Below, piece by piece: positions 9,649 through 23,000 of a DNA stretch of 23,000 bases. Every line of letters begins with the position of its first letter. The first letter of the stretch is position 1. The stretch is from a virus: positions 1-23,000 of the IMG/VR virus record IMGVR_UViG_3300035688_000070; one strand, 5' to 3'. Under the pieces are notes generated by a model that worked only from the letters and a program-made list of their open reading frames with translations, was not told the origin of the DNA and did not search any database. A program made the position numbers and the translations under genes.

Positions 9649-10524
9649 ATGAGTGTTGAAACATATGGCGCACACGAGTGCCGCGTCTATTTCGTGCAAG
9701 AATCAGTGTATGGACAGACACCAACGAATCCTACGATGCTGGGAATAAACAACGAAGGCCCAGAGCCAAAAATAGCCCCAAGCCTCATTGAAATCATGGG
9801 CGTGGGCAGCAGAGACCTTCAAGCCTTGGTCGCTGGCATGAGAAAGGTTGACTTGAAGATTCCGCACACATTGAGTCCTCTTGCTCCCATCAATTTCATC
9901 CAGCACGTGCAGACATTGAACAGCCTAAGTGTTCTGGTGGCTTACTACAAGGGCTTATTTACGAGCCCAACAAACGTCATTGCCTTTATGCATACTGGCT
10001 GCAAAATCGATAAAGTAAGCGTCTCATGCAAAATTGATGATATAGTTAAGGCAGACGTTGAGTTAATCGGTCGAGATGTCTCAAGGTCAACAGCGCTACC
10101 AACAGGCGCAACTTATGGCGACTACCCAGGCGGAATCCCGTTCTTTAACACTAAGGTGCAGAAAGGCGCTGCTGGCGGCGGAAGCTTAACTGATCTTACT
10201 GATGTCACGGACTGGAAGTTTGAGATTCAAAACAACCTGAAAGCTGTCGTTACAATTCAGAGCGGCGGAACAGGGCTTTTGCTGAAGTATCTACGCGAAC
10301 GCAACCGAACACTAAGCGGAGAGCTTACGCTCGAATTTGAGAGCGATTGGGCGCTAGCTGATCTTTTGGCTGATACTCAATTCAGCTTAAACTTCAACTT
10401 GAGTGGTGGAAAACAAGCTCTATTCACGTACTGCAAATGGGGAGAGTTCAATCCAACAGCAAAAATTAAGGATCTCGCAAGCGTTAAGCTGAAGTTTCTC
10501 GCTCAAACCGTAGCCATAAGTTAG
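9649..10524 (+). CDS. Tail tube (major tail) protein
   Basis: A 291-residue protein starting at ATG 9649 with AAAAAGGTGA at 9634-9643. It is beta-rich with periodic strands: an N-terminal YGAHECRVYFVQESVYGQTP start typical of archaeal and phage tail tube proteins, a central GCKIDKVSVSCKIDDIVKAD strand pair, and DVTDWKFEIQNNLKAVVTIQ with the C-terminal tube fold. The long insertion with hydrophobic strands is normal for siphovirus tube proteins. It polymerises into hexameric rings around the tape measure. It lies between the tail-completion protein and the assembly chaperones, as expected. Family membership rests on position and motif pattern. Confidence 0.78.
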   Translation: MSVETYGAHECRVYFVQESVYGQTPTNPTMLGINNEGPEPKIAPSLIEIMGVGSRDLQALVAGMRKVDLKIPHTLSPLAPINFIQHVQTLNSLSVLVAYYKGLFTSPTNVIAFMHTGCKIDKVSVSCKIDDIVKADVELIGRDVSRSTALPTGATYGDYPGGIPFFNTKVQKGAAGGGSLTDLTDVTDWKFEIQNNLKAVVTIQSGGTGLLLKYLRERNRTLSGELTLEFESDWALADLLADTQFSLNFNLSGGKQALFTYCKWGEFNPTAKIKDLASVKLKFLAQTVAIS

Positions 10525-10532
10525 GTGATTCT

Positions 10533-10871
10533 GTGCGAACGGAAACGCTTGAAGTTGATGAGCGTTTTGGTAAGGAATACGCTGGCCGCTACGTTTTCAG
10601 AGAGATCACGTGGGCTAAACGTAACCGCATACTGCAGAAGTACACACAGTACAGTACTAAAACGGGCACTGTCATAACAACGGATTACGTGGCGATCCAA
10701 GCGGAGACAATATGGGCTAGTCTCAAGGAGCAGCCGGATTGCAAGCCCTTATCGTTAGAAAAGCTGCTTGGCGAAGATGAGAATGGCATTCCCATAGGCT
10801 TAGGCGAATTACTCAGCAAGACAGCTAACAAGCTTAACGCGCTTTCGGTTGAAGAGACAAAAAACTCTTGA
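10533..10871 (+). CDS. Tail assembly chaperone, short form (gpG-like)
   Basis: GTG 10533 has AGGTGAT at 10523-10529 as ribosome site, overlapping the tail tube stop. The 112-residue protein is acidic with helices (ITWAKRNRILQKYTQYS, then DYVAIQAETIWASLKEQP, then SLEKLLGEDENGIPIGLGEL). This matches the helical N-terminal domain of lambda gpG-like chaperones that bind the tape measure. The gene lies between the tail tube and tape measure genes, the conserved location. Its last codons carry the slippery heptamer at 10859-10865, allowing a fraction of ribosomes to continue into the -1 frame (11065) and make a longer form. Confidence 0.75.
   Translation: MRTETLEVDERFGKEYAGRYVFREITWAKRNRILQKYTQYSTKTGTVITTDYVAIQAETIWASLKEQPDCKPLSLEKLLGEDENGIPIGLGELLSKTANKLNALSVEETKNS
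10859..10865 (+). other. Programmed -1 frameshift slippery site (A AAA AAC)
   Basis: In the phase of the upstream gene, the codons are ACA AAA AAC TCT TGA, so the heptamer A AAA AAC is in the canonical X XXY YYZ register. It is only one codon before the stop. A slip of -1 puts the ribosome in the frame of the ORF ending at 11065, which is open from here. A GGGC (10872-10875) and GCCC (10890-10893) pair could form a small stem six bases after the site. An alternative stem is GCGG (10882-10885) with CCGC (10892-10895). The heptamer and frame relation are seen directly. Confidence 0.7.
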
Positions 10872-11065
10872 GGGCGATGAGGCGGAGTAGCCCGCACCAG
10901 TCCGTCACAGAGTTTAGGTTGTGCAAAGAGTTCGGGTGGACTATTCAGCAGCTTTATCAGCAGCCGAGCAAGAAAGTCAGCGAGTTTCTCGTTATCTTAA
11001 GTGAAATAGATCGGCAGACGCAGGAAGAAATTGACAGGGCTAAGAGAGAGTCGAGGCGCCGTTAG
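10868..11065 (+). CDS. Tail assembly chaperone extension (gpT-like), probably expressed by -1 frameshift
   Basis: This frame begins near TTG 10868 and overlaps the end of the upstream chaperone. Its product alone would be 65 residues (ATG 10877 would shorten it to 62). It contains EFRLCKEFGWTIQQLYQQPS, then a helix VSEFLVILSEIDRQ, and a basic end RESRRR. This small, W-x-x-x-x-L-Y domain resembles the gpT part of lambda-type gpGT, which contacts the tail tube. No good Shine-Dalgarno precedes it; GAGGG is only two bases from ATG 10877. With the slip at 10865, the fusion would be 177 residues. Independent translation by coupling cannot be excluded. Confidence 0.7.
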   Translation: MRAMRRSSPHQSVTEFRLCKEFGWTIQQLYQQPSKKVSEFLVILSEIDRQTQEEIDRAKRESRRR

Positions 11066-11068
11066 AAA

Positions 11069-11443
11069 ATGAGTGTCCAGTTTCGTGTTGAGCTTAGCGG
11101 GTTTGAAGATTTTGCTGAGAAAATGCGTACACTAGATGAAGCCATGCAGGACTGTGTCCAAGACGCTTTGAATCAGACAGGTCAAATGGTTGTGCGTCGT
11201 GCTCAGGAGTTGGCGCCGGTAAGGACTGGTCGCTTGATTTCGGGGATTTACGCTCAGATCATTTACAAGTGGGTTGTCAAAGTCGCGTGCATGGTGCCTT
11301 ACGCTTTGTTTCAGGAGTTTGGCACAAGATACATTAGTCCACGTTATTTCTTAACGCGGGCTTTGGCGGAGAATGCGAGTAACTTTATGTTTATTGTGTC
11401 TGCGGCTTTGGAGCGTGCTGCAGAGGAGGCGGGTGCAGAATGA
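11069..11443 (+). CDS. HK97-gp10-like (DUF646-type) head/tail component
   Basis: A 124-residue protein starting at ATG 11069, three bases after the chaperone frame stop. It carries the family pattern: an N-terminal helix with FEDFAEKMRTLDEAMQDCVQ, then MVVRRAQELAPVRTGRLISG (the conserved A-x-x-x-A-P-v-r-T-G-x-L motif), then VPYALFQEFGTRYISPRYFL (Y-A-x-x-x-E-F-G-T, then P-R-x-F-L). These features define the HK97 gp10 family of tail-completion or joining proteins. In most siphoviruses the gene precedes the tail tube, but here it follows the chaperones. It may have a local tail-tip or joining role. The next gene starts in ATGA overlap. Confidence 0.8.
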   Translation: MSVQFRVELSGFEDFAEKMRTLDEAMQDCVQDALNQTGQMVVRRAQELAPVRTGRLISGIYAQIIYKWVVKVACMVPYALFQEFGTRYISPRYFLTRALAENASNFMFIVSAALERAAEEAGAE

Positions 11444-12357
11444 GTACAATGGGCGAGATAGCGGTTACGATTCGAGCGGTGAATGAGGCTACGCCCGAGT
11501 TTGAAGCTGTCGCAAGTGATGCTGCGCGTATGGCTTCAGAGGTTGGCGCTCAGGCCGTAACTATTCATACAGAGAATTTGGCAAGCCCAGAGATTAACAG
11601 GGTTGCTGAAGACGCTGCAAGAGTTAAGGCTGAGGTTGAAGGTTCGCCGATAACGATTTCTTTTGCGCCGATTGAAGTTCCACCCTTGCCGCCACTTGAT
11701 ACTACGCCTATCCAAGCAAGCCTTAACGAAGTCGGAGTTGCTGCAACAGGGATGGGTGCGGATGTTGAAGCTGCGTCGACTAGTTTTGATGATATGTCTG
11801 CGCATGCTGAAGCGACTATGGTAAGCTTGCGTACAGTTGCGGGTGGCATACGGAGCTTCAGTATGATGGGTATGGAGCTTACGACGGTAGCGACTGACTT
11901 CGGCATACTTGATAGAGAGACGGCGAAATACGTGCGTGGACTGATGGCTGTTATAATGATTGTTTCCACTGCTGCTCGTATGTACAGCTTCCTCACGCTT
12001 ATGACGACTGGGCATACTGCTGCTCTTGCCGTTGAAACTACCACGGAAACGGGGGCTACTGTAGCCGAGACTTCTCATTCAGTTGCTCATGGGATTTATG
12101 CGGCTGCTTGCAACATTGCAACGATGGCTGAAAACGCCTTAAACATTAGCCACGCAACATTTCTGGCTTTGACCGGCGTTGGAATAGGCGTAATCATTGC
12201 TGCTGCTGTTGCTATTTCCTATTTTGCCTCTCAAATGAATCAAGCAACAGAAAGTGTTAAAAATTATAATACGGCTGCTGCTGAGACGCCTGCCAGAACA
12301 AGCGGTATCACAAGAGCGCAAGAGCAATCTTTATCACGGAAAGGTGTTGAGCCATGA
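11440..12357 (+). CDS. Short tape measure protein
   Basis: A 305-residue protein overlapping its neighbours on both sides (ATGA at 11440 and at 12354). It is Ala, Thr and Val-rich with long helices. There is a repeated N-terminal unit: ATPEFEAVASDAARMASEV, then ASPEINRVAEDAARVKAEV about 35 residues later. Hydrophobic helices lie at about residues 165-190 (LMAVIMIVSTAARMYSFLTL) and 240-265 (FLALTGVGIGVIIAAAVAIS), as in tape measures that enter host membranes. Its position after the chaperones and before the tail hub supports the call. At about 1.5 angstrom per residue it would set a tail of only about 45 nm. Confidence 0.72.
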   Translation: MSTMGEIAVTIRAVNEATPEFEAVASDAARMASEVGAQAVTIHTENLASPEINRVAEDAARVKAEVEGSPITISFAPIEVPPLPPLDTTPIQASLNEVGVAATGMGADVEAASTSFDDMSAHAEATMVSLRTVAGGIRSFSMMGMELTTVATDFGILDRETAKYVRGLMAVIMIVSTAARMYSFLTLMTTGHTAALAVETTTETGATVAETSHSVAHGIYAAACNIATMAENALNISHATFLALTGVGIGVIIAAAVAISYFASQMNQATESVKNYNTAAAETPARTSGITRAQEQSLSRKGVEP

Positions 12358-18184: not shown

Positions 18185-19642
18185 ATGCACATGAGAAAAC
18201 ATGAATATTTTCAAATACAACAATATAGGAGACGATACGACCGCAAAACAGACAGATTCATAATTAACTTAGGCTACAAGACGGCTCCGCCGAAACCGAC
18301 AAGCAGAGTTGTGAGCGTTGCTGAAGGCTTCGGACTTGGCATGGATCAGTGGGAGAAGTTCATAGTTTACGATAATGTTGAGCTGAAAATAGGACGTACT
18401 GATATTACATATATCACGGGCGATTCAGGCTCAGGCAAAAGTGTGCTGCTTAAGGCTTTGGAAAAAGATATCAAAGGGGACATGGGCGTAAGCTGCATTA
18501 ACATTACCGACATCCAGCCTGAACCTGGCAAGCCTCTAATCGAAACAGTCGGCAAAACCCTCGAAGAAGGCTTGGAGCTTCTGAGTAAGGTAGGCTTAAA
18601 CGATGCTTTCCTTTTCCTTCGCAGTTATGAGCAGCTTAGCGACGGACAGAAATACCGTTATAAAATTGCGAAAATGATGGAGAGCCAAGCTCAATTCTGG
18701 GTTATGGATGAAGCTATGGCTACGCTTGACAGGGACACAGCTAAAATCGTTGCTTTTAACCTTCAGAAGCTCGCCAGGCAGCAGGGTAAAGCGGTTTTGG
18801 CAGCCACAACACACACAGATCTCTTCGAAGACTTAAACCCGTCAGTGCACATTCACAAGCGATTCGGCAAAGAAATAACAGTAAACTATTATCCAAACAC
18901 GCCGGCAAGGGAATGCAGTCTCATAAGAGAAATGCGAATAGAGCAAGGCACTGTTCAAGCTTGGCGCATGCTCGCAAGCTTCCACTACCGAAGCCACAAA
19001 ATAGCAGGACCGCGCAAAATCTTCTGCCTCAAACGTGGAGACGAACTCTGCGGAGTAATAGTCTATTGCTATCCGCCACCCACATGTTTTGGGCGCAGGC
19101 TCGTTCTGCCAAAAATGACCATGAAAGAATTGAATGAAAAGCTGAGCATCATCAGCCGAGTTGTTGTTCATCCGAAATACCGCACCATAGGTTTAGGCGC
19201 AAAACTCGTAAAGGAAACATTAGCAAAAGCTGGAACGCCATATGTGGAAATGCCAGCAGTCATGGCGAAATACAATCCCTTCGCGGAAAAAGCGGGCATG
19301 GAGAAAATAGCTGAGCAGCCACCGCCTAAAGAAGCCTTAAAGATTGCGGAAACCCTTCAGCATCTCGGCTTTAACATTCAACTTTTGGGGAGCGAGAAAT
19401 ACGTTTTGAATAAGCTGCAAACCCTAAGCGATGAAGGTCTAGAAAAAGTGCGAGAAGCATTCATTAAACATAGCCACTTACGGTTTATGAAGTATTTCTT
19501 CTGCCACATGCCTTTCGGAAGGAAGGAAGTTTACGCAAAAGAAGTAATGAAAGCCAGCCTTGAAAGGCTCTCGCACTTAATCAAAGTCTGCGGCTTCCTA
19601 ATGCAAACAAAAGTTTACCTTTTCTGGGAGCGACCAGTTTGA
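18185..19642 (+). CDS. ABC-type ATPase fused to a GNAT acetyltransferase (COG2401-type)
   Basis: A 485-residue protein. Starts at ATG 18185 or ATG 18191 are possible, with a weak GGAG site. The ATPase part has Walker A GDSGSGKS (residues 79-86), the signature LSDGQKYRYKIAKMM (from 151, Asp in place of the usual second Gly), Walker B FWVMDEAMATLD (171-182) and a switch His in TTHTDL. No transmembrane part exists, so it is a soluble ABC protein. The C-terminal part has RVVVHPKYRTIGLGAKLVKE (from 325), the acetyl-CoA-binding motif A of GNAT enzymes. The fusion matches COG2401, an archaeal family of unknown function. Acetylation substrate is unknown. A TATA-like TTTTAAT at 18161-18167 suggests its own promoter. 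Confidence 0.85.
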   Translation: MHMRKHEYFQIQQYRRRYDRKTDRFIINLGYKTAPPKPTSRVVSVAEGFGLGMDQWEKFIVYDNVELKIGRTDITYITGDSGSGKSVLLKALEKDIKGDMGVSCINITDIQPEPGKPLIETVGKTLEEGLELLSKVGLNDAFLFLRSYEQLSDGQKYRYKIAKMMESQAQFWVMDEAMATLDRDTAKIVAFNLQKLARQQGKAVLAATTHTDLFEDLNPSVHIHKRFGKEITVNYYPNTPARECSLIREMRIEQGTVQAWRMLASFHYRSHKIAGPRKIFCLKRGDELCGVIVYCYPPPTCFGRRLVLPKMTMKELNEKLSIISRVVVHPKYRTIGLGAKLVKETLAKAGTPYVEMPAVMAKYNPFAEKAGMEKIAEQPPPKEALKIAETLQHLGFNIQLLGSEKYVLNKLQTLSDEGLEKVREAFIKHSHLRFMKYFFCHMPFGRKEVYAKEVMKASLERLSHLIKVCGFLMQTKVYLFWERPV

Positions 19643-21378: not shown

Positions 21379-23000
21379 TTACAGTGGGCTATCCCAGTAG
21401 GGTATGCCCGTTTTTGCAAGCTTCTGTGAGTCCCTTGGTGTTGCGCTGCCTTCGTGGCTGGCCACGTCTGCTGGAAAGGCCAGTTTTTCTCCGATACCGT
21501 TATAGTCGTCAAGCAGTCCGGCGATCCGGGTCATTTCGTCACCGTTGGTTCCGCTGTAGGCCTTGTTTCCAGCAGTTATGATGTCATCACCTGTAACTGG
21601 ATCTTTTGGCAATGGCTGCCCGTTTGCGGCGTGATTCAGGATTGCTCCGACTAATTGCTGCAGCAAAATCATCCTCTTTTGATCTATATCGGGTGATCTG
21701 TCTGTGCGGTAAGAGTTCTTCGGTATGGAAGCGTAGAATGCCCCGAAGAGTTTTTCGTAAGTGTCGATGGTCTTGGCGTGAGATGTGCCCGAGTCTATCG
21801 TTATGAGACTATTCAGTTTATTATCAAAGACCCATTCCGTGAACTTCGTGTGTGTTTGCCAATATCCAATGGTTCGCGTTGGCACTAAAACCTGCAAAAC
21901 ATCCAAAGGTTCAGCAGTTTCGCCGCTCTCAGCAGGGTCATAGTTGCTATCGCCGAGATATTTGGCCTTGAAGTAGTAGGTGCCAGGTAGACTAGGCTTG
22001 TAGGGGATGGAAGTTGCCGTACCAGAAGCGTCCAAAGTCTCAGTGTCATACTTGGTCCAGACATCGCCAGGAGCCAGAACATAGAATTCAACGGTGCCCG
22101 TTGGACCTGGAAACGGTGCGGGCAGGCCAGTAACGGTAACCTTGTCAGTCACAGATTCGCCTAAATTGATTTTTGCAGCAGAAACCAAAGTCTCAACCTT
22201 AGGCGTGTAAGGCTTAACCTTCAAAGGCTCTTCTTTTGCACCGCTCTCAGCACCATTGTAGTTGCTGTCGCCGAGATACTTAGCTTTGAAGTAGTAGTCG
22301 CCAACAGCCAAAGGCGTGTAGCTGTCAGAGGTAGCTGAACCAGCAACAAGAGTCTTAGTAGCACCAAACTGTGTCCATGTAGAACCGCCATCAGTCGAAA
22401 CATAGAACTCAACGTCGCCAGTAGGATCTGGGAATGGAGCGGGCAAACCAGTAACAGTAACCTTGTCAGTTACAGAGTCGCCTAACGTAATCTCTGAAGC
22501 TGAAAGCAGAGTCTCCACCTCTGGAGTATATGGCTTGACTTCTAATGGCTCTGCTGTGTCGCCGCTCGTAGACTCCTTGTAGTTGCTGTCGCCAACATAG
22601 TGCGCCCTGAAGTAGTAGGTGCCAGTCTTCAGAGGCGTGTAGGCGATGGAAGTAGCTGTTCCTGAAGCATCCAATGCCTTGGTGTCAAACTTGGTCCAGA
22701 CACCGCCTGGAGGCAGAACCCAGAACTCAACATTGCCCGTTGGCATCGGATAGCTACCGCCCAAGCCAGTGACTGTGGCCTTGTCAGTGACGGATTCACC
22801 CAAAGTTATCGATGTTTTTGAAAGCTCAGTAGCAGTCTTAGAATCAGCAGGACCAACTTCTAGAGGCTCAGCAGTGTCGCCGCTCGTAGACTCCTTGTAG
22901 TTGCTGTCGCCAACATAGTGCGCCCTGAAGTAGTAGGTGCCAGTCTTCAGAGGCGTGTAGGCGATGGAAGTAGCTGTTCCTGAAGCATCCAATGCCTTGG
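21379..23000 (-). CDS. Ig-repeat surface protein, C-terminal part (partial)
   Basis: Open from the window edge to TAA at 21379 (reading leftwards), at least 540 residues; the 5' end lies beyond 23000. It starts with at least four Ig-like repeats of about 106 residues, each with ITLGESVTDKVTVTGL, then PTGxVEFYV, then GTYYF(K/R)A(K/H)Y, then GDSNY and ending in EPL(K/E/D)V. These are bacterial-Ig-like (Big_3 type) adhesion domains. The C-terminal ~160 residues begin TRTIGYWQTHTKFTEW, a G-Y-W-x-x-H domain that closes many archaeal and bacterial repeat proteins, and end at ...TGIPYWDSPL. The protein is probably exported and attached at the cell surface. No sorting motif is clear. Confidence 0.8.
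   Translation of the reverse strand, partial: KALDASGTATSIAYTPLKTGTYYFRAHYVGDSNYKESTSGDTAEPLEVGPADSKTATELSKTSITLGESVTDKATVTGLGGSYPMPTGNVEFWVLPPGGVWTKFDTKALDASGTATSIAYTPLKTGTYYFRAHYVGDSNYKESTSGDTAEPLEVKPYTPEVETLLSASEITLGDSVTDKVTVTGLPAPFPDPTGDVEFYVSTDGGSTWTQFGATKTLVAGSATSDSYTPLAVGDYYFKAKYLGDSNYNGAESGAKEEPLKVKPYTPKVETLVSAAKINLGESVTDKVTVTGLPAPFPGPTGTVEFYVLAPGDVWTKYDTETLDASGTATSIPYKPSLPGTYYFKAKYLGDSNYDPAESGETAEPLDVLQVLVPTRTIGYWQTHTKFTEWVFDNKLNSLITIDSGTSHAKTIDTYEKLFGAFYASIPKNSYRTDRSPDIDQKRMILLQQLVGAILNHAANGQPLPKDPVTGDDIITAGNKAYSGTNGDEMTRIAGLLDDYNGIGEKLAFPADVASHEGSATPRDSQKLAKTGIPYWDSPL
22556..22682 (-). repeat. 127-base perfect repeat, copy 1 (Ig-like unit)
   Basis: The same 127 bases recur at 22874-23000, 318 bases (106 codons) away. 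The copies look identical base for base and cover the GTYYFRAHY...GDSNY half of the Ig-like unit. The other two units visible in the gene are similar but not identical. This indicates a recent duplication or gene conversion. Confidence 0.75.
22874..23000 (-). repeat. 127-base perfect repeat, copy 2 (runs to the window edge)
   Basis: Identical to 22556-22682 by eye as far as the window allows, so the true repeat may be longer. It lies in phase with the first copy inside the surface-protein gene. Confidence 0.75.

Follow-up and report, generated by a model that had tools for sequence, protein, structure and literature searches.

Lambda-type frameshifting in the genes for tail assembly chaperones is textbook knowledge. 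For archaea, a 2021 review counted one demonstrated case of -1 frameshifting, the fucA1 gene of Saccharolobus solfataricus, along with a few haloarchaeal viruses recognized from sequence (PMC8211752). Among tail chaperones, -1 frameshifting had earlier been reported for HVTV-1 and for HCTV-1, -2 and -5 (PMC5009743, PMC8211752). A preliminary description of the locus presented here had called frameshifting only rarely documented in archaea; given these viruses, that statement is too broad for tail chaperones, in which it is less rare. No report of frameshifting for Bathyarchaeia was found in the open-access literature: the BATPV1 paper (PMC11705971) and a paper on Bathyarchaeia viruses (PMC10848311) do not mention it, and in a survey of archaeal tailed viruses (PMC8651126) it appears only in the title of a reference.

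The DNA analysed here, referred to as the window, is a stretch of 23,000 nucleotides from the IMG/VR virus record IMGVR_UViG_3300035688_000070. The arrangement found in it is of a kind already known. What is new is the Bathyarchaeia family in which it occurs, its scale, the use of U-run sites, and the repeated replacement of U-run sites by A-run sites.

Compared to the closest described systems, the locus exhibits several likenesses and differences. First, as with lambda gpG/gpGT, the chaperone gene directly follows the tube gene, and a short chaperone is extended in the -1 frame at a heptamer located shortly before the first frame ends. Unlike lambda, the heptamer is A_AAA_AAC in the window and U_UUU_UUA in most of its relatives, neither of which is lambda's sequence; the host is archaeal; and a gene resembling HK97 gp10 separates the chaperone from the probable tape measure gene of the window. 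Second, in HCTV-2, a Haloarcula tailed virus, the zero frame of the chaperone ends with GCA AAA AAC TGA, and the gene is annotated as a joined CDS. The two loci share the A AAA AAC near the zero-frame stop (directly before it in HCTV-2), the -1 extension and an archaeal host. However, the tape measure gene directly follows the chaperone in HCTV-2, the hosts are haloarchaea rather than Bathyarchaeia, and the N-terminal domain encoded in the window has no tblastn match in phage records.

Third, Bacillus phages of the Andromedavirus type (Andromeda, Finn) and phage Jayan carry a homologous C-terminal domain (35-46% identity, E values down to 7e-8). As in the window, this domain is read in the -1 frame downstream of an A-rich heptamer, located in these phages 10 nt before the zero-frame stop, and the gene order (tube, G, T, tape measure) is a further likeness. 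They differ in the heptamer, which is A AAA AAA or A AAA AAG, in their bacterial hosts, and in having the second frame annotated as a separate gene. Fourth, fucA1 is similar in that archaeal ribosomes shift by -1 at a slippery heptamer, but it is a cellular enzyme gene rather than a conserved two-product design; it is interrupted in two strains and has full-length homologues in other Sulfolobales (PMC8211752).

Layout of the locus and the encoded proteins

The features of the locus are as follows, in order of position.

9649..10524, + strand: tail tube protein, directly upstream of the chaperone (Pfam Phage_tube_2, E 3e-20; PHROG 290)
10533..10871, + strand: gpG-like tail assembly chaperone, zero frame, 112 residues (ORF, AlphaFold model, Foldseek matches)
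10859..10865, + strand: slippery heptamer A AAA AAC in -1 phase (sequence; canonical heptamer in all distinct loci)
10865..11065, + strand: gpT-like domain, -1 frame, 66 residues after the putative shift (PHROG 9001, tblastn, conserved -1 frame)
10872..10895, + strand: possible weak hairpin region, tentative, with an inner stem of 10882-10885 and 10892-10895 (stem excess in A-run lineages)
11069..11443, + strand: HK97-gp10-like or tail completion gene, directly downstream (PF04883, E 9e-8; PHROG 5, E 1e-20)
11440..12357, + strand: probable short tape measure protein, 305 residues (weak PHROG 339 match, E 0.023, plus position)

The zero-frame ORF starts with GTG at 10533 and closes with GAG ACA AAA AAC TCT TGA, the stop codon occupying 10869-10871. 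Its heptamer, composed of the last base of ACA followed by AAA AAC, is in exact slippery phase for a -1 shift. The -1 frame is open through 11062 and stops at 11063-11065, so a shift at the heptamer would give a fusion of 177 residues. The slippery phase, the open frame and the length of the fusion, all named in the preliminary description, were reproduced from the sequence. However, AAAAAAC occurs five times in the window, compared to 8.75 expected, and because the motif is not rare there, a lone heptamer proves nothing; its significance rests on conservation.

The two parts of the predicted fusion were identified by different means. For the zero-frame domain, sequence searches revealed no family, a profile search against PDB sequences returned nothing relevant, and Pfam gave nothing useful for either chaperone domain. 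The AlphaFold model of this domain (pLDDT 87) aligned with YqbN (3klu; Z 8.6, rmsd 2.3, 81 residues aligned) and with the HK97 tail assembly chaperone (2ob9; Z 6.5, rmsd 3.2, 80 residues aligned). In a Foldseek search of a viral library, the model matched several tail assembly chaperones, including that of HCTV-1, with a probability of 1.00. A lone Z score of this size is weak, and it is the consistency of the match lists that supports assigning the modelled domain to the tail assembly chaperone fold. The -1 domain, for which a helical model is predicted, matched PHROG 9001 (tail assembly chaperone) with an E value of 3e-10 for the window, and 45 of 45 members tested matched this family (best E 1.4e-15). 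By sequence homology, including the tblastn matches to the Bacillus phage chaperones, it is a gpT-like tail assembly chaperone domain. The lambda-like gpG/gpT reading proposed at the outset is thus backed by fold for the N-terminal part and by family for the C-terminal part.

The chaperone pair lies between the tube gene and the probable, weakly identified tape measure gene, with the gp10-like gene intervening. An HK97-gp10-like or tail completion gene is usually expected elsewhere. A gp10-like homologue was found downstream of the slip site in 151 related loci, which are all those with enough flanking sequence, typically about 200 nt after the site. At the place of the tape measure, several relatives with a T-run heptamer have an ORF of about 180-250 residues, compared to 305 in the window. 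If the identification is right, the short probable tape measure suggests an unusually short tail.

Two other ORFs of the window were observed in passing. In the ORF at 18185-19642, an ABC-type ATPase domain is fused to one resembling GNAT acetyltransferases. On the minus strand, at 21379-22998, a long ORF is made up of mutually similar repeats, Ig-like in appearance when inspected by eye, and runs off the end of the record; it probably encodes a surface or adhesion protein.

Conservation and turnover of the heptamer

Related loci were gathered by two scans of viral contigs, one scan of genome contigs and one scan of 257 genomes of the class, yielding 170 usable loci, of which 157 are distinct at the DNA level. 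Nineteen of the 20 genome matches are Bathyarchaeota records, some of them in contigs of 1.7-2.2 Mb. Relatives are thus integrated in archaeal genomes, and the earlier assignment of the window to an archaeal virus is supported, the hosts being uncultured Bathyarchaeia. The twentieth (L101, JAQTNX010000020.1) belongs to a metagenome-assembled genome labelled Candidatus Bipolaricaulis (Bacteria), a label that may reflect mis-binning or an unusual host. One locus (L094) belongs to contig JAAKEZ010000002, which carries the published provirus BATPV1 (PMC11705971). The chaperone gene is present in 32 of the 257 genomes of the class, and several of them carry more than one copy (five in G004, four in G100, and multiple copies also in G098, G097 and G128), so Bathyarchaeia often carry several related proviruses.

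A canonical in-phase heptamer is present in 157 of 157 distinct loci, its position varying by no more than one codon. The loci are related to one another, so the counts are not independent trials. No relative was found that keeps both genes but has lost the heptamer. The heptamers comprise T6A (112 loci), A6C (26), T6G (13), A6T (4) and A6A (2), referred to below as T6 and A6 types, while A_AAA_AAG, the bacterial favourite, occurs in none of the 157. The residues encoded at the site differ (Lys-Asn in A6, Phe-Leu in T6). The codon preceding the slip codons is NNA in all A6 loci (six codons: ACA, TCA, GCA, CTA, GTA and CAA) and NNT in all T6 loci (10 codon types), and these preceding codons span many amino acids. 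Among pairs encoding the same residue, codon identity at the heptamer is 1.0, compared to means of 0.52 (A6) and 0.48 (T6). As a background, in the parts of these genes upstream of the site, nine codon pairs out of 16,269 form an in-phase XXXYYYZ pattern, and two of these nine are of A6 or T6 type. We hold with very high confidence that the slip signal is under selection.

These data also bear on two other explanations of the broken frame. Metagenomic contigs and homopolymers are prone to error, and the frame break might be an artefact of sequencing or assembly, or the mark of gene decay; the same -1 break, however, is present in 157 distinct sequences from many assemblies, and the -1 frame is under protein-level constraint (see below), which leaves this explanation with a negligible chance of being correct. 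Alternatively, RNA polymerase might stutter on the six-base A or T run, producing a mixed mRNA pool from which standard translation gives both proteins, and a homopolymer run is indeed present at every locus. However, polymerase slippage usually needs longer runs. The run is exactly six in 152 of the 157 loci and seven in five, with no drift to longer runs, and the X XXY YYZ phase is kept even though the run differs in base and, by one codon, in place. Transcriptional slippage is known for other genes (PMC5009743) but is very improbable as the explanation here. Slippage of the ribosome by -1 is, with high confidence, the reading of the signal that its sequence pattern favours.

The two types of site are distributed over the family in an informative way. 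In a quick tree that included 31 A6 loci, and in which many branches are long, the well supported branches require no fewer than two switches between T6 and A6. On this tree, the A6 type arose at least twice among T6 lineages, and the spread of T6 over the tree suggests that it is the older of the two. When the proteins are aligned, the A6 site lies one codon earlier than the T6 site. Because of this offset, one type of site is taken to have replaced the other without base-by-base mutation in place; judged by the alignment, the heptamer of the A6 lineages was replaced, not lost.

Expression of the second frame

At T6 loci, the zero frame continues for about 40 codons past the slip site (median overlap 136 nt), which allows the two frames to be compared over the same DNA. 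Amino acid identity in the overlap is 0.70 in the -1 frame versus 0.43 in the zero frame, and in the -1 frame codon position 3 is the most variable (0.53 versus 0.73 and 0.84). The -1 frame is the constrained one, because its amino acid identity is higher and its third positions vary most.

The second frame could instead be a separate gene, translated by coupling from a TTG at 10868, which overlaps the stop (TTGA), or from an ATG at 10877, with the heptamer being incidental. The window does hold both start codons, the ATG being preceded by GAGG (10870-10873). Furthermore, the A6 lineages, including the window, have ATG or GTG 18 nt after the first base of the heptamer, and each of the 31 A6 loci in the tree encodes Met or Val there. 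However, the spacing between GAGG and ATG is only 3 nt, lineages other than A6 do not conserve the ATG, and the corresponding codon is Ile in most T6 loci. Moreover, 107 of 125 T6 loci have no start codon within 60 nt of the slip site, and in 17 of the 157 loci no ATG, GTG or TTG is present anywhere in the -1 frame; therefore, independent initiation cannot be the general route. A separate gene would also leave the invariant synonymous bases at the heptamer unexplained. This explanation is accordingly rated as highly unlikely, and an extra internal product may be made from the ATG or GTG in the A6 lineages. The proposal that the second gene lacks a usable ribosome site is borne out by the relatives, none of which has a good one, but needs qualification for the window, in which the possible starts are poor rather than absent.

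Collectively, these results point to a lambda-type chaperone gene pair whose expression very probably involves programmed ribosomal frameshifting by -1. The majority of ribosomes would read AAA AAC TCT and terminate at TGA, producing the gpG-like protein of 112 residues. In the remaining, smaller share, the tRNAs paired with AAA (P site) and AAC (A site) would both move back by one base and re-pair with AAA AAA; reading would resume with CTC TTG AGG, giving the 177-residue gpG-gpT-like fusion. By analogy to lambda, the short form would coat the tape measure and the fusion would bring in tail tube subunits; because of this division of labour, the slip frequency would set the ratio of short form to fusion.

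Elements that might stimulate the slip were also sought. A G-C stem beginning six bases after the site had been suggested, and a GGG does start at 10872, but the downstream region of the window folds no more stably than its shuffles (z 0.18 and -0.59). RNAalifold gave no consensus stem in either the A6 or the T6 group, and these nulls, together with the window values, speak against a downstream pseudoknot or stem as a general feature. An Rfam search gave no match. In the A6 lineages, 45-nt windows are somewhat more stable (mean z -1.28 versus -0.10 upstream), and short stems are longer than in codon-shuffled controls (3.63 versus 3.10, reached in 0 of 300), an excess that is inflated by the relatedness of the sequences; the T6 lineages show no excess of short stems or stability of this kind. 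We regard the A6 stems as a lead only, because of this kinship and because Arg-Gly-Lys-Pro-His codons favour G-rich and C-rich arms.

An upstream Shine-Dalgarno-like stimulator was rejected. GAGG is present within 22 nt upstream of the site in 60 of 121 T6 and nine of 31 A6 loci, about what Glu codons give, and the variability of the Glu codons in these alignment columns is unremarkable, so the element is not conserved.

Slippage rules and implications

Slippage in E. coli is far weaker at A_AAA_AAC and U_UUU_UUA than at A_AAA_AAG (PMC5009743), and bacteria may use A_AAG motifs even when they have a CUU tRNA (PMC4066793). The sites favoured here, A_AAA_AAC and U_UUU_UUA, resemble eukaryotic rather than E. 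coli preferences (compare PMC5009743, PMC4066793). A survey of tRNA-Lys genes in one Bathyarchaeia genome gave one Lys(CUU) gene with an intron and did not identify Lys(UUU). In Bathyarchaeia, a heptamer on its own (U_UUU_UUR or A_AAA_AAY) might suffice, with no conserved stem or Shine-Dalgarno element, and the slippage rules might be largely eukaryote-like. This idea is tentative and somewhat doubtful, as the 13 U_UUU_UUG loci do not fit eukaryote-like rules and there are only two independent origins of A6.

The family has several implications for the study of these viruses. First, the likely annotation of such viruses would be corrected, as the second frame would not be a separate gene. Second, the fusion offers a junction peptide that could be sought in sediment metaproteomes, predicted to read EETKNLLRAM around fusion residues 109-114 of the window and ETAFLIRAI in its T6 form. 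Third, the 157 loci, with two types of heptamer and two independent A6 origins in another archaeal phylum, constitute a large natural series, through which the rules of slippage in archaea can be tested comparatively.
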